A DNA stretch of 64,000 nucleotides from Oscillospiraceae bacterium (GTDB taxonomy: Bacteria > Bacillota > Clostridia > Oscillospirales > Oscillospiraceae). This document shows, in pieces, positions 4,986 to 18,391 of this stretch. The DNA is taken from NCBI GenBank assembly GCA_021769865.1, contig JAETSB010000015.1, forward strand, positions 1 to 64,000. Reading direction: 5' to 3'. Below the pieces are notes generated by a model. That model was not told the origin of the DNA and ran no database searches. It worked only from the letters and a program-made list of their open reading frames with translations. The translations under genes were made by a program, and so were the position numbers. Each line of letters begins with the position of its first letter. Position 1 is the stretch's first letter.

Positions 4986-5399
4986 TCAGTACTGAATGGG
5001 GCTCTGCTTGCCCGGATCGAACACCCGCTGGATCCGTTCCAGCAGGTCGTCGGGAGCAAAGGGCTTCAAGACATAATCGCAGATCCCCAGCTTGATGCCT
5101 TCCATGACGGACTTCCGGTCCTCCTGTCCGGTCAGCATGATCACCGGAATATCGGCCCGGTCCTCCATAGCGCGGATCTCCCGCAGGGTCTCAAAGCCGT
5201 CCTTGGGGATCATACGGATGTCCAGCAGGATCAGGTCCGGCTTCTCCTGCTCCAGGAACCGCAGCGCCCGCGCGCCGGAATTGACCGTGACCACGTCGTA
5301 GTATTTTTCCAGGGTATCCGTGATCCTCAGTAAAATCGTAGCCGCGTCGTCTACTGCTAAAATGCGCTTGCGATAGCTTTTTCTTCTCACTTGAGTCAT
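4986..5399 (-). CDS. Single-domain response regulator
   Basis: 137 residues. Receiver domain with acidic pair LAVDDA (about 15-20), phospho-Asp in LILLDIRMIP, Thr in VIMLTG and Lys in VLKPF, followed by a short basic/polar tail and no DNA-binding domain. The ATG overlaps the stop of the upstream hybrid kinase as ATGA, so kinase and receiver are translationally coupled; the coupled kinase carries an Hpt domain that can pass phosphate to a free receiver such as this one. It differs in sequence from the CheY-like protein two genes downstream, so the operon has two diffusible outputs. Confidence 0.85.
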   Translation of the reverse strand: MTQVRRKSYRKRILAVDDAATILLRITDTLEKYYDVVTVNSGARALRFLEQEKPDLILLDIRMIPKDGFETLREIRAMEDRADIPVIMLTGQEDRKSVMEGIKLGICDYVLKPFAPDDLLERIQRVFDPGKQSPIQY

Positions 5400-8248
5400 C
5401 TGCTTCCCGTCTCCTTTTCAAGTTTGCTCAGAAGCTGGTTCAACAGGGCTTCCGCGTTGTCGTCCTCGTACAGCTTCAACTGTCCCTGGATTTCCCCGAG
5501 ACTGTTCGCCGCGTCCTGCGGCAGCTCGTGGCTCAGGAGCTCCTCCACGATTCCGGCGCATTCCTTTGACCGGAAATGCGCCAATTCATCCAAAGCCGCC
5601 CCGGCCCGCTCCTTCAGCTCCTGGGGAGTCAGGGGAGGAAGCTTTTCCGCCTGGGGCGCGTCTTGTCGGCGCTGTTCCAGGAACAGGCCGATGTTCTCCA
5701 GAAGCTCCTCATAGCTCTCCATCAGCGCGGGGAACTGGCGGGCGATAAAGTCTGTGTCGCCCTGCGCGGCAGCGTTCTCCTGGGCGCGGGCCATATTGGA
5801 GACCTCCATGGCCCCGATATTGGCGGACGCGCTCTTGAGGCCATGCACCTCCACCTGGTAGCGGGGAATGTCGGACACGGCAAGTTCCCGCAAGAGCCCC
5901 GTTTTGCGGCGGCCGTCCATATGGTAGAGCTCCAGCAGATCGGCAAAGCCCTCCGCGTCGCCGGCATAATAGCGGGACGCGGCGTCCGTATCAATTCCCT
6001 TGATTTGAAAAACGCTCAAGTCCACAGCGCCGGACGGCGCCTCCTCCCCTGCGGCCTGACGGCGTTCCTCCGGGACCCAGCGGTCCAGAAGCTGGCCCAG
6101 CTCTCTCCGGTCCAGAGGCTTGGCGATGAAGTCCTGGAAGCCCCGCTCCAGGAATCGCTCCCGCATGCCCGACATGGCGTTGGCGGTCAGGGCAATGATG
6201 GCGGGGGCGGTTCCGTTCTCCCCGCAGTCCCGGCGGATGATCTCCGCCGCCTCGATGCCGTCCATGACGGGCATCATATGATCCATAAAGATGATGTCAT
6301 ACCGGTTTTTGCGCACCAGCTCAATGGCCTCCGGCCCGCTTTCGGCCTCCGTGAGGTCGAAGGCATAGCTCTTTAAAAAGCCCCGCGCCACCTTTCGGTT
6401 GATCAGGTTGTCGTCCACAAGGAGGACCTTCACTCCGGGGGCGGTAAACGTCTCCGTGCCCTCCAGCTCCGCCATGGGGCCCTCCCGGACCTCCGCGATG
6501 GGGCGGCGGTCCACGATCTTCTGGGGAATGGTGATGGACACCGCGGTCCCCTCTCCATAGACGCTCTCCACGTTGATGGAGCCGCCCATCAGCTCTACCA
6601 TGTGCTTGACGATGGCCAGCCCCAGGCCGGTGCCCTCCACGCTGCGGTTGCGCTTGGCGTCCACCTGGCGGAAGTCCTCGAAGATCTTTTCCAAGTCCTC
6701 TTCCCGGATGCCGCAGCCGGTGTCCTCCACCCGGAAGGTGATCAGCTCCTCATCCTCCCGCCCGCCGGGCTTTCCGGTGACGCAGGCCTTCACGTAGCCC
6801 TCTTTCGTGAACTTGACGGCGTTGTTGAGTATGTTGATCAGGATCTGCTTGATTCGCCCCTCGTCGCCGCTGTACCGGCAGGGAAGCGCCTCGTCGCACT
6901 CGTATTTCATGATCAGCCCGCGCTTGGAGGCAGCCAGGTCCATCATGCCCACCACCTCGTCCACAACGGTCTTCAGATAATAGTCCGCGTATACCAGCTC
7001 CATCTTGCCCGCCTCCACTTTGGACAGGTCCAGGATGTCGTTGATGATGGCCAGCAGGTTCTTGGCGGCGGACTTCACATCCTTGGCGTGGGCGTATATG
7101 GAGGGGTCCGCGGTCTCCTCCATGATGATGTCGTTCAGCCCGATGATGGCGTTCATAGGGGTCCGGATCTCGTGGGACATGTTCGCCAGAAACTCGCTTT
7201 TGGCGATATTGGCCTTCTCCGCCTGCTGGCGCACCCGCTTGATCTCATTGATGTAGGCCTTGATGTCCGTCATGTCCAGGATCAGGATGACGCAGCCCTG
7301 TTTCCGGCCGTTTTCGTCGACGATCTGTTTGCTGTGGCATTCATAGTGCTGCCCATTGATGGAAAAGCTCCAAGGGATATTCTCGTTGAGCATCTCCTCC
7401 CGGAAATCCTCCACCACCCGGATGTCCTCCCCCAGCTTGTGGGAGGGCAGGCTGACGAAGATATGGGCGGCGGCCCGGTTGTAGCTGACCAGCCTGTCGT
7501 GGTCGTCCAGGGCGATGACCCCGTCCCCCAGGCTCTCCAGCACTTTTTCCGCCGCCAGATGCCGGAAGTCGTAGTTCCGGCGGCTCCATACTACGATGAC
7601 CACCATGGACATGGAGATGGCAAGCGTCACCGGGGTCAGGTCGAACACCCTTGTGAGCTTGCACACGTAGGCCGCCAGCATAATAATGGGCATAGTGGAA
7701 ATGGCCAGGATCGACTTATACTGGCGGTTGATCCGCTGGTCTGAGCGGAGGCGGACCGCCCGCACCAGGGTATGTATGCAGAGAGCATAGGGAATAACAA
7801 TGCGGGTCATCATAAAAAGCGCGTACAGCGGCCCATAGGCAATGCTGATATAACAGAAACCGTTCTCGGCGGCCAGCCATTGAAATTCCCGGTAAAAAAG
7901 CCCATTCCAGTTAAAAAACACGGTGGGAAGCACCAAAAAATTGATGACGCCGAGGAGGCCAAGCAGCTTCTTGGGCGGGGCCGCGTAACAGTAGGTGTAA
8001 ATAAACCAGCAGTAACAAAGCGGCACAAATGCGGATCCCACATTTTCCACCGTCACCGCAGCCACGGCGGCTTCCAGCGTAGGGGCGGTCAGCTCCAGCA
8101 GATAGCCCGCGTTCTGCACCAGAGTGCCGCACATAATGAGGATCAGCAGTTTCTGCTCCTGAGCCCCGGCCCCGTTGATCAACAGAAGCAGGGCGACAAA
8201 AATCAGGCATATGCCGAAGCATGTCAACACTATAACAAAATTTTCCAT
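5396..8248 (-). CDS. 7TM hybrid sensor histidine kinase (PAS-HisKA-HATPase-REC-Hpt)
   Basis: 950 residues from ATG at 8248, six bases after GGAGG; an ATG four codons upstream lacks spacing. Residues 1-225 hold about seven hydrophobic helices (histidine kinase N-terminal 7TM type). A PAS-like domain spans about 235-335. HisKA has the phospho-His in NMSHEIRTP (H359), and HATPase has N and G boxes (NILNNAVKF, DTGCGI, GTGLGL). The receiver phospho-Asp is D656 (FMDHMMP). A C-terminal Hpt has His802 in VEVHGLKSAS. It can therefore run a full His-Asp-His relay and hand phosphate to the coupled receivers downstream. The ligand of the 7TM sensor is unknown. Confidence 0.9.
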   Translation of the reverse strand: MENFVIVLTCFGICLIFVALLLLINGAGAQEQKLLILIMCGTLVQNAGYLLELTAPTLEAAVAAVTVENVGSAFVPLCYCWFIYTYCYAAPPKKLLGLLGVINFLVLPTVFFNWNGLFYREFQWLAAENGFCYISIAYGPLYALFMMTRIVIPYALCIHTLVRAVRLRSDQRINRQYKSILAISTMPIIMLAAYVCKLTRVFDLTPVTLAISMSMVVIVVWSRRNYDFRHLAAEKVLESLGDGVIALDDHDRLVSYNRAAAHIFVSLPSHKLGEDIRVVEDFREEMLNENIPWSFSINGQHYECHSKQIVDENGRKQGCVILILDMTDIKAYINEIKRVRQQAEKANIAKSEFLANMSHEIRTPMNAIIGLNDIIMEETADPSIYAHAKDVKSAAKNLLAIINDILDLSKVEAGKMELVYADYYLKTVVDEVVGMMDLAASKRGLIMKYECDEALPCRYSGDEGRIKQILINILNNAVKFTKEGYVKACVTGKPGGREDEELITFRVEDTGCGIREEDLEKIFEDFRQVDAKRNRSVEGTGLGLAIVKHMVELMGGSINVESVYGEGTAVSITIPQKIVDRRPIAEVREGPMAELEGTETFTAPGVKVLLVDDNLINRKVARGFLKSYAFDLTEAESGPEAIELVRKNRYDIIFMDHMMPVMDGIEAAEIIRRDCGENGTAPAIIALTANAMSGMRERFLERGFQDFIAKPLDRRELGQLLDRWVPEERRQAAGEEAPSGAVDLSVFQIKGIDTDAASRYYAGDAEGFADLLELYHMDGRRKTGLLRELAVSDIPRYQVEVHGLKSASANIGAMEVSNMARAQENAAAQGDTDFIARQFPALMESYEELLENIGLFLEQRRQDAPQAEKLPPLTPQELKERAGAALDELAHFRSKECAGIVEELLSHELPQDAANSLGEIQGQLKLYEDDNAEALLNQLLSKLEKETGSR

Positions 8249-8320
8249 TTTCGCCTCCATCCGCCCGAGCCCGCCGCTTTATGCCCGAACAGGGGAACGT
8301 AATGGGCTCTAATTGTATTT

Positions 8321-8744: not shown

Positions 8745-9673
8745 TCAAAGATCCGCTGGAATCATTCGAATAATTTCCTGAAACGGCAGCAAGGTCTCAT
8801 CTGCCTCCAAGGCTCGGTGATTCTTCAAAACCGTCTCCGCCGTCCGGCGCATAGCGGGAACCTGGCTGCGCATCAGATGATTCGCATAGATTACAATGTT
8901 CACGCCTCGCCGCTTAAACTCCTCCTCGGTTACTGCGTGGAAAGCAGTCGGAACCACGATCAAAGGCGTGGCTGCATCTTGTTTTCGGAACCGCTCTATA
9001 AACGCAAATATCTCGTCCGGCTCCTGTTCCCGGGAGTGAATCATGATACCGTCCGCTCCGGCCTGGACAAAAGACGACGCCCATACGAGAGCATCCTCTA
9101 AGCCCTTTTTCAAAATCAGGCTCTCAATCCGGGCTATAATCATAAAATCGGAGGATTTCTGCACCCGTTTCCCGGCGGCAATCTTCGCGCTGAAATTTTC
9201 GATGCTGTCCTGCACCTGCGCCGCTTCTGTGCCAAACAGAGAGTTTTTCTTCAACCCCTTTTTGTCCTCGATAATCACCGCAGATACGCCAAGCTTTTCC
9301 AAAGAGCGGACTGTATACACAAAATGCTCCGCTAACCCGCCGGTGTCGCCGTCGTTCTGGATCACAATGCTGGAATGACCGGGCTCGTCCCACGGCAGGT
9401 CCACGTCCACTTTCCGGTCCTCGGTGGTATAGCGGTCTTCCAGCACCACCGCGCCCTCCGCCGTGCTGAGGCCCGCCGCAAGACGCGCCTGATCCCCATC
9501 GATCAAAACTGTGTAGGAAATCCGGTAGTCGCCCCCGGATTGGAAGATATAGACCGCCGCCTCCATCTGTTCGGTGGGGTCTGCCCCCGCTCTATGGCGA
9601 GGGCGTAGGCATCCCGGGCCTCCCGGACCTGTCCCAGCCCGGTCAGACGCCGGGCTGGCTCCATTGCGTCCAT
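8745..9673 (-). pseudogene. Chimeric relic: TPR-like start joined to PEP-mutase end
   Basis: A plausible start (ATG 9673 after AAAGGA) opens MDAMEPARRLTGLGQVREAR, TPR-like, then loses frame in the C-run at 9584-9588; reading continues one frame over as DPTEQMEAAVYIFQSGGDY. The C-terminal 190 residues match phosphoenolpyruvate mutase / isocitrate-lyase superfamily enzymes: GDTGG, VSAVIIEDKKGLKKNSLFG, FMIIARIESLI and ADGIMIHSR. The N-terminal active-site part of that enzyme is missing. PEP mutase makes phosphonopyruvate for phosphonate-decorated glycans; here only a dead fragment remains. It follows the flagellin terminator. Confidence 0.65.
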
Positions 9674-9695
9674 ATCCGCTGTCCTTTCTTCGGAA

Positions 9696-9726
9696 AGAGG
9701 GCCGGGCGAAACGCCCGGCCCCCTCG
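9696..9726 (-). terminator. Flagellin terminator
   Basis: Stem GGGCCGGGCG / CGCCCGGCCC with a three-base loop followed on the minus strand by TCTTTCC, 38 bases after the flagellin stop codon. Confidence 0.8.
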
Positions 9727-9763
9727 TTGGTTTTGCGGAACAACTTTATGCCGTATTCCAGGA

Positions 9764-12109: not shown

Positions 12110-12534
12110 GATGTTGACTCCTTTCAATCTATTAATGTGCCTCGGAACATCCTTTTACCCAGGCACAGGTCTGTGGAGCGCCGTTCCCCCGGGCGCTGTG
12201 GCCACAGCATTCCGGACGTCAAGCGCGGGAACATATTTCAACCGGCCTAGGACCGGGTGAAACCAAGGTCAAATAAGGTCCTGCTTCAAAACAATTAAAA
12301 TAATATTGTGTTGGAGAAATCACCCCAAAAAATTTCGGACGGCATCTTCTGGCGGCCCGGGAAACGCTGATTTCATTTTCCCGGACTTACGCACAACTCC
12401 GTCCAGCTGTCTCCGGTTTTCCCAACCGCTTTCATTACTACATATCGGCGGCATTCTGCCAAAAATAATAGCCCGAATAAAAATATTTTCCTATCCGGAA
12501 TCGTGCACAACCCCGGACAAATCCTCTCTTCTCA
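12110..12534. other. Intergenic region upstream of flagellin
   Basis: About 425 bases holding the flagellin leader and presumably its promoter. I looked for a sigma-28 signature (TAAA-N15-CGATAA) on the minus strand and did not find a convincing one. An AT-rich block at 12280-12330 is the best place for one. No coding signal seen. Confidence 0.5.
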
Positions 12535-12684: not shown

Positions 12685-15390
12685 TTAAAACCGCGCCGTC
12701 CCATCCTGGCCGGATGTCTGGAAGAACGGAATTGCCGCGTCGCCCCTTCTCATGAACAGCAGGCCAAACGAACCCGGGCCGCAGTTGCTCGCAATGGACG
12801 ACGACGCCTTTTGCAGGTAGACCCGTTCAAACGGACAATATTGCCGCACTAGGTTTTGAATGTACTGGAGCTTCTTTTCATCCATTCCGGAATAGGTGAT
12901 GAACAAGATGCGCCGGTCAATGTTTTTGACGTCCTGAAGCGTCTTCTTGACATACTTTTTCGCCGCGTGCAGGAAATTGCCCGACTCCACGCGGCTGACC
13001 ACCATTCGGCTCTTTTTCAGTACAAGCACCGGATGCAGCAGCAGTGCGTCGCAGAGGACTTCGATGTGTTTTGGTATCCGCCCGGACTGGCACATCATAT
13101 GAGTGCTGTTGATGATGAAAGCGGAGGAAATGAAACGCTCCATCCGTCTCACCGAGTCCAGGATATCCTCCTTCGCGGCGTGGTGCTCCGCCATGTAGGC
13201 CGCGCACAGCACCGTCAGGCCCATGCTGCTGGAGAGGTGCCCGGAGTCGATCACCGTGACGTTTTCAAAGGACTTCGCCGCCTCCAGGGCGTTTTGATAC
13301 CCCTCGCTGACATGCCTTGCCATCGTAATGTGAATGACGTTCTGGGCCTCCGTCAGCTTTTCCGCAAAGAACCTCTCGTAATCCTCCACATCGGGAGGCC
13401 GGGAATAGCCCCTCCGCCCTTCGGAGATGTGCGCCAGCAGCTCATCGGGATTCAGCTCCTGACCATCCAGGAAGCGCCCCTCGTCCGTGCAGACATAGTA
13501 GGGGCATACGGAAATGCCAAGCTCCTTTTTGAGGGATTCCGGTAAGTCGCACACGCTGTCCGTCGTGACCAGGATGAAGCGCCTTTGCGTCTGCTCGAAA
13601 ATCAGGATATCCTTTTCGATGTCGGCCTGACGGGCTTCCTCGTTCAGCCGTATCAGACCCTTTGGAAGGATGCTCAGCACAGCCGCCTCCAGCAGCGCGC
13701 CGCTGACCGGCTTGGCGAGATACCCGCTGAAGCCCTCCTTGCGGTAGAGGAGCTGGTTGTCGCTGCCCGCGTTGGCGGTCAGCGCAACGACGGGCGTATC
13801 CTGGCACAGTCCGCCCGGCTGCACGCGCAGAGCGTGGAGGCATTGGATCCCGTCCATCTCCGGCATCAGGTGGTCCATGAGAATGCAGTCGTAATGGTGG
13901 TTTTGCGTCAACGCCAGGCACTGCGCCCCGCTGGAAGCCGCGTCGATCTGGATTTTCGTCGCCGACAACAGCTTGCGCACCACCATCAGATTCATATCGT
14001 TGTCGTCCACCACGAGAATATGGGCGTCCGGCGCCTCAAAGCTCTGCCGGTACGACTCCCCGTCATGAACGCTTGTGCGGGTGGCCAGCGTGAACGTCCC
14101 CAGCTCCTTGCCGTCGACGATATCCTGATCCAGCCTGACGATGAACTTGGAGCCTTTGGTATAAACGCTGTTGACGCTGATCTCGCCGCCCATCAGCTCC
14201 ACCAGCTGCTTGACAATGCTGAGCCCCAGCCCGGTCCCCTCAATATAGCGGTTTTTTTCCTCATCCACCCGGCGGAAGGCGTTGAAAAGGTAAGGAATAT
14301 TTTCCTTCTTCACCCCCTGCCCGGTATCCTCCACGGAGTACCAGACGCGTACCCGGTTGACCCCCAGGCGTTCACTCCGGACCGAGAGGGTGACGGAGCC
14401 TTCGCCGGTGTATTTCACCGCGTTGTTCAGCAGGTTGATCAGGATCTGCTTGATGCGGACCTCATCCCCGCAGAGCATGCTTGGAATGGAGGAATCGATA
14501 TGGAGCTTAAACTCCAGGCCCTTTTCCTTTGCTTTGACCCAGATCATGTTGACAATCTCCGAAAAGAGGGCGCCCGTCTCATACGAAACATTGACAATCT
14601 CCATCTTCCCGGATTTGATCTTAGAGATGTCCAGGATGTCGTTGATCAGCGAGAGCAGCAGCCTGCTGGCCCCCTGGATGTTTCTGGCGTTCTCCGCCAC
14701 TTCCTCCGAAATGTTCTCCCGCAGGATGATCTCGTTTAGCCCGATGATCGTGTTGATGGGCGTGCGGATCTCATGGCTCATGCTGGAAAAGAAATGGTTT
14801 TCCGCCCGGTTTAACTCCTCAATCTCTTTTTTCTGCCGCTGGGTGAGGGCGTTTTCCTCCTCGTACATCCGGCTCAAAAACAGGAGCAGCACGCTGGTGA
14901 GCAGCCCCACCACAATCATGGAGAACGCAGAATCGAACAGGGCGTTATGATGGACGTTGAGCACGGCGAGCTCCGGGTGATAGTAAGCGGCGCCGTAGCA
15001 CAGCAGCGTCTCCGCCGTGCACAAGCCGAAGAATATGATCCTGCGCCTTCCGCTCAAGGTGATGCAGACGTAAATGAAGCAGAGGACAAACCACTCCGGC
15101 ACACCGCTGTAAAATCCGCCCGCGGAAAAAAAGGTGATGGGGAACAGGACCAGCAGCAGCATCGCGATGGCCGTGGCTCCCGCGTGAATGCGCTGCTTGC
15201 GAATGCTGAATCTCACGATCAACGCCATCGCGGCGAGGCTCACGATCAGAAGCGCGATATTCAACGAGCTCCTGCCCATGGGAAGGGTGAACGTGATGGC
15301 AATCATGCAGATGCCCGTCACAATGCGGAACATACGCTCGCGCAGGCCGATTCTGTGATCGGCGATGATCTCAAACCATTTTTTTATCAC
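12685..15390 (-). CDS. Hybrid histidine kinase fused to a DegV fatty-acid-binding domain
   Basis: 901 residues, GTG start behind GAGGGG. Order: membrane region with 5-6 helices (about 20-175); HisKA with H206 in SMSHEIRTP; HATPase (NLLNNAVKY, DTGQGV, GTGLGL, about 300-425); receiver with acidic VVDDND and phospho-Asp D506 (LMDHLMP); then about 604-883 a complete DegV/EDD domain: TTDSVCDLPESL, YSRP where DegV proteins have TSQP, VIDSGHLSSSMGL, SGRI, and NCGPGSFG where the family usually has HxGPG. DegV/FakB proteins bind fatty acyl chains for FakA kinase or transport. The loss of the usual His suggests lipid sensing or binding rather than FakA partnership, which is inference. Third gene of a receiver-kinase-kinase operon. 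Confidence 0.9.
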   Translation of the reverse strand: MIKKWFEIIADHRIGLRERMFRIVTGICMIAITFTLPMGRSSLNIALLIVSLAAMALIVRFSIRKQRIHAGATAIAMLLLVLFPITFFSAGGFYSGVPEWFVLCFIYVCITLSGRRRIIFFGLCTAETLLCYGAAYYHPELAVLNVHHNALFDSAFSMIVVGLLTSVLLLFLSRMYEEENALTQRQKKEIEELNRAENHFFSSMSHEIRTPINTIIGLNEIILRENISEEVAENARNIQGASRLLLSLINDILDISKIKSGKMEIVNVSYETGALFSEIVNMIWVKAKEKGLEFKLHIDSSIPSMLCGDEVRIKQILINLLNNAVKYTGEGSVTLSVRSERLGVNRVRVWYSVEDTGQGVKKENIPYLFNAFRRVDEEKNRYIEGTGLGLSIVKQLVELMGGEISVNSVYTKGSKFIVRLDQDIVDGKELGTFTLATRTSVHDGESYRQSFEAPDAHILVVDDNDMNLMVVRKLLSATKIQIDAASSGAQCLALTQNHHYDCILMDHLMPEMDGIQCLHALRVQPGGLCQDTPVVALTANAGSDNQLLYRKEGFSGYLAKPVSGALLEAAVLSILPKGLIRLNEEARQADIEKDILIFEQTQRRFILVTTDSVCDLPESLKKELGISVCPYYVCTDEGRFLDGQELNPDELLAHISEGRRGYSRPPDVEDYERFFAEKLTEAQNVIHITMARHVSEGYQNALEAAKSFENVTVIDSGHLSSSMGLTVLCAAYMAEHHAAKEDILDSVRRMERFISSAFIINSTHMMCQSGRIPKHIEVLCDALLLHPVLVLKKSRMVVSRVESGNFLHAAKKYVKKTLQDVKNIDRRILFITYSGMDEKKLQYIQNLVRQYCPFERVYLQKASSSIASNCGPGSFGLLFMRRGDAAIPFFQTSGQDGTARF

Positions 15391-15440: not shown

Positions 15441-17951
15441 CTATTGTCCGGCAATGCGTGCGCAGAGCTCTTTGTACGCGCGCATCAATGGGGAGTGGTG
15501 CGCGCGGATATAGCCGACGTCGCCCGCTTTTCCCGCCTGTTCCAGCTCCTTTGCCTGGGCCGAAAACGCCTCCGCGCCGATGGTCAGGGAGGTGCTTTTC
15601 AGGGCGTGGACCTTCACCGCGTAGTCCGCCCAGTTGGCGCTTTCATAGAGGGAGGCGATCTCCGCCCGCTTCTCCGCGCCCTGGGCACAGAACATCCGCA
15701 GCATTTCCCGGTAAAACTCCTCGTCCCCGGCGCAGTAGTCCAGCCCCAGCTCCACATTGACGCCGGCTTCGGCAAGCCGGTCATAGGGAAGCGCCGGGCT
15801 TCCGTCCTCCGGCAAAACGGCTGCCGGGACTTCCGTACCTTCCACCGTGGAAGCGGACTCCGCGCTGCCCACAGGCTCGCCGCCGCTGGGCGTCGTGCTG
15901 TACTGGATGCAGCTTGGGGGAAGCACCTTTCGCAGCACCCGCTCTAAGACGGTGCGCTCAATGGGCTTGGGTATAAATTCCGTAAATCCCTCGCTGCGGA
16001 ACATCTCCCTGGCGCCGCTGACCGTGTTGGCCGTCAGCGCCACCACCGGCAGATCCTGATACAGGCCGTTTCGGAGCTCGCGGATCCTTTTCAGGGTCTC
16101 CACGCCGTCAAATCCCGGCATCATGTGGTCCAAAAAGATGATATCATAGGAACCGCTGCCGCACAGCGCGATTGCTTCCCGTCCGCTCAGGCAGGTGTCC
16201 ACCTGGATCCCATAGCTTCCCAAAACCCCCTTGGCGACCACCAGGTTCATCTCCTCGTCGTCCACCGCCAGGGCGCGGACGCCCGTGCAGAGGAAGGGCT
16301 TCCGGCCCACGGCCTGGTCCTCCGCGAACCCGCGCTCCCCCATCTCCCCGTTCAGCAAATTTGCGACGGAAAGCGCGGAAAACGGCTTGTGAATGACAAG
16401 CAGGCGGCTGCCATTGCCGGGGACGAACTCCTTCTCCGCAATCAAAACGACCCGGAGCGTACCGGCCAGATCCTCATAATACGCCGGGTTCTCCTCATAT
16501 TCCGTCTGGGCGATGAAGACATGGGTCAGTTTTTGGCTGCGCTGCAATTTGAGCAGGGCCTCAAAATTATGCGCCTGATGGCCCTGGATTCCAAGACCCT
16601 CCACCAGATTGAAGATCAGCCCGTCATAATATTCCCGAACCGCGTCGCAGCTGTATTTTTCCGGCCGGAAGTAGCACGCGATGCAAAACTGGTCCGGATG
16701 GTTGAGCACAATGCACGGCTGTTCGTCCGCGACGCCCTGGGGAATCACGATATGGGCAGACAACCCCTGGTCTTCGTTGACAAAATGAATGAACCCGCCC
16801 ATCGAGTCCAAAAGCCCCCGCGCGATGGGAAGCCCAAGTCCAAGCCCTCCCGTAAAACGGCTGCTTCCGGGATCCGCCTGATAAAAGAGGTCATACATCT
16901 TTGTCAGCTGGGAATCCGTCATGCCAATGCCGGTATCCCGGATAACGATGATCAAATTGAGGCCGTAACTTTCCCGGCGGCATTTTATGCGGACGTTTAC
17001 GCCGCCCTCCTCTGTAAATTTCATGGCGTTTTCCACCAGAATTTTGAGCACGTGGGAAATTTTTTCCGCGTCCCCGACGAGGACCGCCGGCATTTTCGGA
17101 TCGATGTCGAATACAAGCTCCAGGTGCTGCCGGTTGCTCTGCAGGGCGGTCATGGTAATCACGTCGTTCAGCACCGAGGTGATCATGTATTCCTTCTTGG
17201 CCGGAGTCAGCGTGCCTTCCATGATCTCCGTATAGTCCAGCATATTGCTGATTTGGTTCGACAGGCGCTTTCCCGCCATTTTTATGGACGTCATATCCGC
17301 CCGGATATCCGGGGAGAGCTCTTTGCCAAGGGCCACTTCGCTGATGCCGATTACCATATTAATGGGCGTGCGGAGCTCATGAGATACATTTGATAAAAAT
17401 GCGGCGTTCTGCTTTCCCGACGTCTCCAGCTCCGTAAATACGCGTTCGTACCAATTCCGCTGTGTGCTGCGCCGGTCAATCCAGTATCGCGCAAGGGCCA
17501 CCCCGCCGAAGGTCACAAGGACGCCGAGACCCAGACGGAACAAATCCTCGTTTCCCATCCGGATGAAAATGGTGTGAAGGATTAAGCCGTGATACAGCAG
17601 GATCAGTCCATACAAGGACGCGATCACGTACATGATCCATTTTTTATTCAGCATAAACAGCGAAAGGATCAGGATGCAGGCCACGGCGGGGGCGTCAAAA
17701 AGGCTGGATCTATGTACCCCAAAGAAAAAGAATTCGGTCAGCATCAATCCTGCGCACAGGTTTTCATAAAACGTATCCGAGCCAAACCGCCCGATGTGCA
17801 GCAGCCACACGCTGAAGCAGCCCGCCGTCACCAGCAGGATCATCCAAAATTCCCATGCCCGGATCAGCGTGACCATGCTCAGCATGCCGCTGAACACCGT
17901 TGCGATGACGGCCAGCAGCAGGTGCCTGCTTGCCTGTTCCTCCGCCCTCAT
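15441..17951 (-). CDS. Hybrid sensor histidine kinase with pseudo-receiver, receiver and Hpt
   Basis: 836 residues. Five or six membrane helices (about 8-155), HisKA with H191 in NVSHELRTP, HATPase (VENAMKF, DTGIGM, GLGLGL). Next comes a receiver-like stretch (about 415-545) lacking an evident phospho-Asp, which I read as a pseudo-receiver. A true receiver follows with AVDDEE and phospho-Asp D608 (FLDHMMP), and a C-terminal Hpt with H782 in KVHALKS. The start overlaps the stop of the upstream receiver gene as ATGA. It ends 50 bases before the DegV-fused kinase, so both kinases and the free receiver are one operon and probably one relay. Confidence 0.88.
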   Translation of the reverse strand: MRAEEQASRHLLLAVIATVFSGMLSMVTLIRAWEFWMILLVTAGCFSVWLLHIGRFGSDTFYENLCAGLMLTEFFFFGVHRSSLFDAPAVACILILSLFMLNKKWIMYVIASLYGLILLYHGLILHTIFIRMGNEDLFRLGLGVLVTFGGVALARYWIDRRSTQRNWYERVFTELETSGKQNAAFLSNVSHELRTPINMVIGISEVALGKELSPDIRADMTSIKMAGKRLSNQISNMLDYTEIMEGTLTPAKKEYMITSVLNDVITMTALQSNRQHLELVFDIDPKMPAVLVGDAEKISHVLKILVENAMKFTEEGGVNVRIKCRRESYGLNLIIVIRDTGIGMTDSQLTKMYDLFYQADPGSSRFTGGLGLGLPIARGLLDSMGGFIHFVNEDQGLSAHIVIPQGVADEQPCIVLNHPDQFCIACYFRPEKYSCDAVREYYDGLIFNLVEGLGIQGHQAHNFEALLKLQRSQKLTHVFIAQTEYEENPAYYEDLAGTLRVVLIAEKEFVPGNGSRLLVIHKPFSALSVANLLNGEMGERGFAEDQAVGRKPFLCTGVRALAVDDEEMNLVVAKGVLGSYGIQVDTCLSGREAIALCGSGSYDIIFLDHMMPGFDGVETLKRIRELRNGLYQDLPVVALTANTVSGAREMFRSEGFTEFIPKPIERTVLERVLRKVLPPSCIQYSTTPSGGEPVGSAESASTVEGTEVPAAVLPEDGSPALPYDRLAEAGVNVELGLDYCAGDEEFYREMLRMFCAQGAEKRAEIASLYESANWADYAVKVHALKSTSLTIGAEAFSAQAKELEQAGKAGDVGYIRAHHSPLMRAYKELCARIAGQ

Positions 17952-18310
17952 AGTTCTTCAAACTCCTGCGCGACCCGCTTCAAAAGCTCCTGCGGCCGGT
18001 AGGGTTTTTTCAGGTAATTCACCGCGCCCATTTTGATTGCGTTGTGGACGTCCTCTTCCAGCCCCGACGCCGTTAGAAAGATCACGGGAATATCGGCGGC
18101 AAATTCCTTCATACGCTCAAAGGTCGTGATACCGTTCATTCCAGGCATATCAATATCTAAAAGGACCATATCCACCTTTCCGCCCTTCAGCTTAACCAGG
18201 GCTTCTATGCCCGAGTCCGCCAAAAGCACGTCATACTCTTTCCCCAGGATGATCTTTGTTCTGGTCAGGTTCATGCTGTCGTCATCCACAACCAAAATAC
18301 GCTTTTTCAT
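17948..18310 (-). CDS. Single-domain response regulator
   Basis: 120 residues, receiver only: acidic VVDDDS, phospho-Asp in VLLDIDMPG, Thr in IFLTAS, Lys in LKKPY. No output domain. First gene of the operon with two hybrid kinases, coupled to the next gene by ATGA. It may carry phosphate between the two kinases' Hpt and receiver domains or act on an unlinked target; which one cannot be told from sequence. GGGAGG precedes the ATG. Confidence 0.85.
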   Translation of the reverse strand: MKKRILVVDDDSMNLTRTKIILGKEYDVLLADSGIEALVKLKGGKVDMVLLDIDMPGMNGITTFERMKEFAADIPVIFLTASGLEEDVHNAIKMGAVNYLKKPYRPQELLKRVAQEFEEL

Positions 18311-18336: not shown

Positions 18337-18391
18337 AAGGCTTAAAAAGCCTTATAAAATTTATTCTACTGGAAAGTCAGAGGAAAATCAA
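18337..18391 (-). promoter_or_regulatory. Sigma-A promoter and leader hairpin of the receiver/kinase/DegV operon
   Basis: Minus strand TTGATT (18386-18391), 17-base spacer, TAGAAT (18363-18368). The leader then forms AAGGCTT-TTT-AAGCCTT (18337-18353) before the ribosome site. Confidence 0.6.

Follow-up and report, generated by a model that had tools for sequence, protein, structure and literature searches.

A conserved histidine kinase-receiver-DegV fusion encoded behind a free receiver and a hybrid kinase in Clostridia

DegV proteins are carriers for fatty acid kinase and are usually free proteins. In hybrid kinases of the usual layout, a domain located behind the receiver (REC) is an output and not an input. 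The membrane kinase RpfC has the layout HK-REC-Hpt (HK, histidine kinase) and RpfG the layout REC-HD-GYP. RpfC is reported to be a membrane kinase that is activated by a fatty acid and senses via a 22-residue N-terminal region (PMC5391125). In FakB, Arg173 is needed for catalysis and a Thr62-Ser95-His270 network holds the fatty-acid carboxylate (PMC8892158, PMC9136124), Arg205 is the FakA docking residue and is described as fully conserved in FakB (PMC8892158), and a bulkier residue at position 158 of FakB1 opened the protein. The C-terminal domain of FakA (PF13684) is described as DegV-like and joined to other domains (PMC10146087, PMC9136124). In the open-licence PMC literature we found no description of a DegV tied to histidine kinases or c-di-GMP output, and passages of PMC3146951 and PMC10146087 do not describe an HK-REC-DegV fusion.

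We analyzed a 64,000-nucleotide stretch of DNA from an Oscillospiraceae bacterium (contig JAETSB010000015.1), referred to as the window. The features relevant here are:

12490..12521, minus strand: terminator-like hairpin in the gap separating flagellin from the fusion (supported by a pattern match only)
12685..15390, minus strand: HK-REC-DegV fusion, 901 aa, GTG start, conserved at full length in relatives
12751..13575, minus strand: DegV (PF02645), residues 606-880, Pfam 130.8 bits against a cut-off of 27, kinase-linked subfamily
13678..14019, minus strand: Response_reg, residues 458-571, Pfam 81.6 bits, phospho-acceptor D506, with D462, D463, T538, and K560
14125..14469, minus strand: HATPase_c, residues 308-422, Pfam 95.2 bits, with N323, D355, and G385
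14608..14799, minus strand: HisKA, residues 198-261, Pfam 58.1 bits, phospho-acceptor H206
14842..15390, minus strand: N-terminal membrane sensor part, residues 1-183, no Pfam family matched
15441..17951, minus strand: HK-REC-Hpt partner hybrid kinase, 836 aa (Pfam)
17948..18310, minus strand: stand-alone receiver, 120 aa, D52, REC only (Pfam)
18363..18391, minus strand: sigma-70-like promoter pattern upstream of the receiver gene (pattern match; two such patterns in the region against 3.6 expected in shuffles)

The DegV domain of the fusion belongs to the same Pfam family as Staphylococcus aureus FakB1 (PF02645/TIGR00762) and matches nearly the full profile, but it is fused to a kinase, Arg205, His270, and often Arg173 are changed in the linked DegVs, and the membrane-helix positions are often polar. 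FakA joins its DegV-like domain to a DhaL-type kinase domain, the fusion to a histidine kinase instead. The HisKA-HATPase_c-REC core is held in common with BarA, ArcB, and TorS; the best NCBIfam matches of the fusion, BarA (299.9 bits) and TorS (298.2 bits), are far under the cut-offs of 890 and 676.5, and unlike in these kinases the C-terminal domain is DegV. The operon resembles RpfC/RpfG in its HK-REC-Hpt kinase, to which many distant relatives add REC-HD-GYP, whereas a second hybrid kinase with DegV is present here and HD-GYP is missing from the operon of the window. The proposed sensor would be DegV, unlike the N-terminal region of RpfC. The analogy is one of layout, not of membership.

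The earlier note on this DNA had described a single frame joining a membrane kinase (H206), a receiver (D506), and DegV. Pfam and the alignment showed that frame and residues were correct, and the frame holds no internal stops. All four domains scored above their Pfam cut-offs, and a profile search proposed for the DegV part placed it far over the family threshold. The match spans profile positions 2-278 of 280 and is thus near full length; TIGR00762 gave 148.7 bits against a cut-off of 99.7. In the sensor part four segments passed the Kyte-Doolittle threshold, and about six helices are guessed. The nine residues H206, N323, D355, G385, D462, D463, D506, T538, and K560 were identical in 75 of 75 aligned full-length fusions (window included). 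Median identity to the window fusion was 89.1% for HisKA and for HATPase, 88.6% for REC, 76.9% for DegV, 67.6% for the variable linker (residues 572-605), and 67.5% for the sensor part. From these values DegV is clearly constrained, but less so than the kinase core, and conservation within the domain is spread across it. The altered DegV hallmarks that had been pointed out, YSRP and NCGPG, were present with the residues as given. Alignment of YSRP with TTSQP of FakB is ambiguous by one column; in the clade of the window (199 sequences, counting near-copies and the window itself) the Ser of this motif is followed by Q in 174 and by R in 12.

The fusion had also rightly been placed third in an operon behind a free receiver and another hybrid kinase. 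The first two genes overlap by 4 bases and the third follows after 50. H191, D608, and the Hpt residue H782 of the HK-REC-Hpt protein were identical in 71 of 71 aligned sequences (window included), and D52 of the free receiver was conserved in 69 of 70. Scanning genome contigs gave 148 relatives, 80 of which were retained (DegV identity 69-90%). The record titles of these are mostly Oscillospiraceae, Lachnospiraceae, or uncultured Clostridia, with cultured strains among them; many titles of loci L035-L114 denote what we take to be isolates or bins of a mouse-gut series. Of the 80 loci, 71 had the three genes complete and adjacent. Among the nine incomplete operons, six were truncated by contig ends (L067, L068, L071, L083, L088, and L102), the HK-REC-Hpt gene was broken or partial in L040 and L056, and no receiver was recognized in L107. 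The commonest other neighboring gene cluster occurred in 13 of the 80 loci, on both strands. Flagellin lies beside the fusion in the window, as the earlier note said, but it was the neighbor in none of the 80 loci, with at least 3 kb following the gene in 67 of the 78 loci with long ORFs. A functional link to flagellin was therefore rejected. Since no other neighbor recurs in more than 13 loci, the three-gene module appears self-contained and flagellin incidental.

Directly past flagellin the window carries a PEP mutase-like ORF (8745-9743, minus strand), for which the profile matched only from position 69; the start of this ORF might be truncated or lie in a different frame. Window positions 5396-8260 (minus strand) encode a further hybrid kinase with HisKA_7TM, a receiver, and an Hpt whose weak score stays below the cut-off. 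In L083, L084, and L100 the fusion is followed by relatives of this kinase (72-73% over the 7TM part).

The DegV part matched 1211 proteins of fitting length (E ≤ 0.001). The best 120 of these were nearly all kinase-receiver-DegV proteins of about 899 aa, a few being shorter, so that the suggested search for other kinase-DegV fusions found many. Among 241 proteins, each representing a 90% cluster, 215 were 880-920 aa long. The long fusion ORFs were 870-935 aa in 73 of 78 cases; of the other five, three have their start at the end of a contig or close to it, L108 exceeds this range, and L056 is N-terminally shortened. A frameshift revealing two genes in close relatives had been named as a possible refutation, and none of the 80 close loci was split between receiver and DegV. 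In L007 (genome G030) the stop just behind the DegV domain is the natural end. The fusion is conserved and real, and its architecture is beyond chance.

Of 200 genomes sampled from the GTDB family of the window, with four candidates scored in each so that absence is not proof, at least seven showed the fusion (G000, G086, G030, G184, G106, G057, and G139), which is cut in G184 and in two pieces in G106. Among the four candidates per genome it was not seen in two other genomes of the window's genus. For 391 genomes across the class, frames of more than 700 aa fell in three families among the matches listed. For the family of G400, matches in open frames of 780 aa or longer came from at least 45 of 299 genomes, and among the matches listed for the family of G256, 67 of 115 genomes had one of at least 334 bits; in both families kinase domains were checked only in frames fetched later. 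This patchy distribution fits transfer or loss. The three genes stay together across many Oscillospiraceae and Lachnospiraceae species. Uncultured Oscillibacter is the label of both the nearest named protein and the nearest record. Plasmid or phage cargo was considered and rejected, as the window DegV matched, in 22 plasmid and 38 phage records, only DegVs of less than 60% identity, at best 26.4% and 30.6% among the ten matches listed for each.

A single branch splits 85 kinase-linked from 30 free DegVs (99% SH-aLRT) in a tree from a quick search without bootstrap, to which a long-branch warning applies, FakB1 having joined to a free row. Residues were counted in the 85 linked and in 28 free DegVs, the latter being ORFs from chosen genomes. 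At the position of FakB Arg205, all 28 free DegVs have Arg against one of the 85 linked (L127); the window has Gly or a hydrophobic residue there, the column differing by one between two alignments. Arg173 is found in 28 of 28 free against 34 of 85 linked DegVs, and in 175 of 199 sequences in the clade of the window. Ser95 is present in 26 of 28 free, 50 of 85 linked, and 199 of 199 clade sequences. Arg173 and Ser95 are kept in the window, and at the Thr62 position it has S or Y depending on the alignment. Position 270 is His in 25, Tyr in two, and Asn in one of the free DegVs, whereas it is Asn in 81 of 85 linked ones (T, S, H, or L in the others; L131 keeps His), and Cys follows in 71 of 85. 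In the two best-sampled clades, Asn270 was found in 318 and the next Cys in 316 of 319 sequences, an alignment of 241 proteins and 78 locus ORFs that includes near-copies and some proteins twice. The window DegV therefore departs from the carboxylate network of FakB by the change of His270 to Asn, and it lacks Arg205 while keeping Arg173.

Position 158 is T or S in 76 of 85 linked DegVs. The membrane-helix positions 177 and 180 of FakB1 are hydrophobic in 89% and 93% of the 28 free DegVs against 39% and 36% of the 85 linked, and positions 38, 121, 181, and 185 stay hydrophobic in linked DegVs. The changes at 158, 177, and 180, as read from the alignment, speak against ordinary fatty-acid exchange. 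That FakB's residues at the carboxylate site and in the membrane helix are not retained makes it doubtful that the ligand is an acyl chain, as the earlier note had suggested. The conserved Asn270 and Cys, together with the positions that stay hydrophobic, suggest a conserved rather than a dead pocket. By sequence, the closest PDB relatives of the window DegV are 2dt8, then 4x9x, 1pzx, and FakB1 (6mh9). The linked subfamily, named only "DegV family protein" in source databases, should not be read as FakB.

Linked DegVs also occur in other layouts. In L214 (5431-8304, plus strand; 958 aa) DegV is N-terminal and is followed by a membrane part, HisKA, HATPase_c, and a receiver. L127 (2672-6106, minus strand) and L204-L208 carry an extra C-terminal Hpt behind DegV (1114-1152 aa). 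In L225-L227 a separate DegV gene directly follows HK-REC-Hpt without a second hybrid kinase, and in L226 REC-GGDEF comes next. L233 has HK-REC, then DegV-Hpt, then REC-GGDEF. L230 (4790-7375, plus strand) and L231 (4451-7060, plus strand) keep HATPase_c and DegV; Pfam found neither HisKA nor a receiver in them at E ≤ 0.001, and they are perhaps degenerate kinases. In L224 HK-REC and DegV are overlapping ORFs with a change of frame where REC meets DegV; the locus was therefore not accepted as a clean split gene and may be a broken fusion. It was counted among four companions in the linked-DegV tree and the residue counts, and the conclusion does not depend on it. An input or regulatory role fits this mobility of DegV among layouts, often beside a receiver protein with an output of its own. 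As L225-L227 branch off first among linked DegVs, the association of DegV with the kinase appears to have preceded the fusion. In L127, L204, L205, and L207, receiver proteins of about 250 aa, the first half without an assigned domain, stand after the fusion gene.

We further annotated with phmmer 47 distant stretches, hand-picked from match lists and thus non-random, eight of which belong to the clade of the window. The order receiver gene, HK-REC-Hpt, fusion recurs in the distant loci. The receiver protein of the operon bears HD-GYP in 20 of the 47, in some also GGDEF, and the HD..GYP motif is intact in 20 of 20. Pfam agreed for all eight HD-GYP or GGDEF receivers scanned and confirmed HD-GYP in seven (L132, L133, L194, L201, L210, L219, and L223). 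REC-GGDEF without HD-GYP was found in L204, L208, and L218, and a separate GAF-GGDEF gene in L127. Eleven loci have a bare REC (L129, L131, L184-L191, and L203). HD-GYP and GGDEF were absent from the fetched stretch in 12 further loci, of which some start or end with the contig (e.g., L197 and L215) and L128, L205, and L207 have only receivers without a known output; the fetched stretches of L130, L192, L206, L209, L215, and L216 contained no receiver protein.

No HD-GYP or GGDEF domain was found by Pfam in the 120-aa receiver of the window. L223, from the same GTDB family as the window, has REC-HD-GYP, and L194, also with REC-HD-GYP, is sister of the window clade in the DegV tree (support 100). 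The best matches of the window receiver outside its clade were the REC-HD-GYP receivers L133 and L195 (93.2 bits, 43-45%), followed at 90 bits by a 121-aa receiver ORF in L213 and by L193 and L194. Based on the sister position of L194 and these matches, the window's clade probably acquired its bare receiver by loss of the output domain; this direction is inferred, and the tree needs three changes over 52 labelled rows.

Mis-assembly, or read-through joining two genes, could in principle have produced the fusion, and the two ORFs of L224 would fit this. It is refuted, and its probability negligible, because the relatives are full length, cultured strains included, and their operons complete. 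It is also very improbable that DegV, here tethered to a kinase, still acts as a FakB and supplies FakA with fatty acid. The domain is full length, Arg173 and Ser95 are kept in the window, and all 14 related genomes searched gave FakA-like_C matches, 13 of them over the cut-off. However, FakA was not found in the metagenome-assembled genome (MAG) of the window (2.13 Mb, 80.8% complete), Arg173 is missing from many linked DegVs, and the three further, free DegV genes of the same genome keep Arg173 and Arg205 (position 270 being His in one and Tyr in two). We reject such a supply of FakA on the loss of Arg205 in the linked DegVs. Its absence from 84 of 85 of them supports the earlier preference for a sensor over a substrate carrier for FakA.

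We lean toward DegV being the cytosolic ligand-sensing domain of an RpfC/RpfG-like phosphorelay and no longer a FakA substrate carrier, a reading of the sequence that we hold to be somewhat probable. It is favored because DegV accompanies these kinases in several arrangements and many operons already hold a c-di-GMP enzyme. If DegV were instead the output, phosphorylation of the receiver would open or close it and cause lipid uptake, release, hand-on, or protein binding. DegV indeed sits behind the receiver, the place usual for output domains, which counts against a sensor, as does the missing output domain in the receiver of the window and in the 11 distant loci with a bare REC, along with the 12 further loci whose fetched stretch lacks HD-GYP and GGDEF. 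In the window's clade, moreover, the three genes encode only phosphotransfer and membrane parts apart from DegV, and a variable linker separates DegV from the conserved REC. An output role is nevertheless unlikely: at least 20 of the 47 distant operons already hold an HD-GYP output, DegV is also found before the membrane part (L214), as a separate gene by HK-REC-Hpt (L225-L227), and with no receiver by Pfam (L230/L231), and the FakA-docking and membrane-helix residues are mostly lost. The fold could also be ligand-free and serve as a dimerization or docking module between both kinases and the receiver, in agreement with the changed carboxylate-site and membrane-exchange residues and with conservation spread over the domain. 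We find this a shade more doubtful than an output role, since Asn270, the next Cys, and the hydrophobic positions are kept. A further point against the sensor reading is that the linked DegVs are not uniformly changed, L127 keeping Arg205 and L131 His270.

The conserved phosphotransfer residues and the shared operon support one phosphorelay of the three genes. With DegV as its sensor, the cytosolic DegV domain would bind a small ligand in a remodelled FakB pocket, and ligand-bound DegV would shift the kinase/phosphatase balance of its own kinase. The HK-REC-Hpt protein would relay phosphate (H to D to H) and hand it to the receiver, through which many distant relatives would break down or make c-di-GMP, in the manner of RpfC/RpfG. 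In the clade of the window the output domain was most likely lost, and the bare receiver would act by docking on another target. More tentatively, a single recruitment in Clostridia may have turned a lipid carrier of the DegV/FakB type into the cytosolic sensor of a phosphorelay that controls c-di-GMP. The carrier would first have been a free protein beside HK-REC-Hpt, as in L225-L227, and would later have become part of a second hybrid kinase. Such a sensor would let the cell detect an internal acyl chain, or another small hydrophobic ligand, independently of FakA and adjust c-di-GMP, the clade of the window acting via its bare receiver. If so, gut bacteria would have a Gram-positive counterpart of DSF sensing that relies on another ligand-binding fold. 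With its many members, cultured species among them, the family offers a testable route by which an internal ligand, perhaps a lipid, may set c-di-GMP in Clostridia.

Elsewhere the MAG of the window has one REC-HD-GYP-GGDEF gene and one REC-GGDEF gene, so that it does contain c-di-GMP genes, and the two products are candidate targets of the bare receiver. The former lies on stretch L265 (4218-9334, minus strand) and is followed by a hybrid kinase, the two being a possible partner system.
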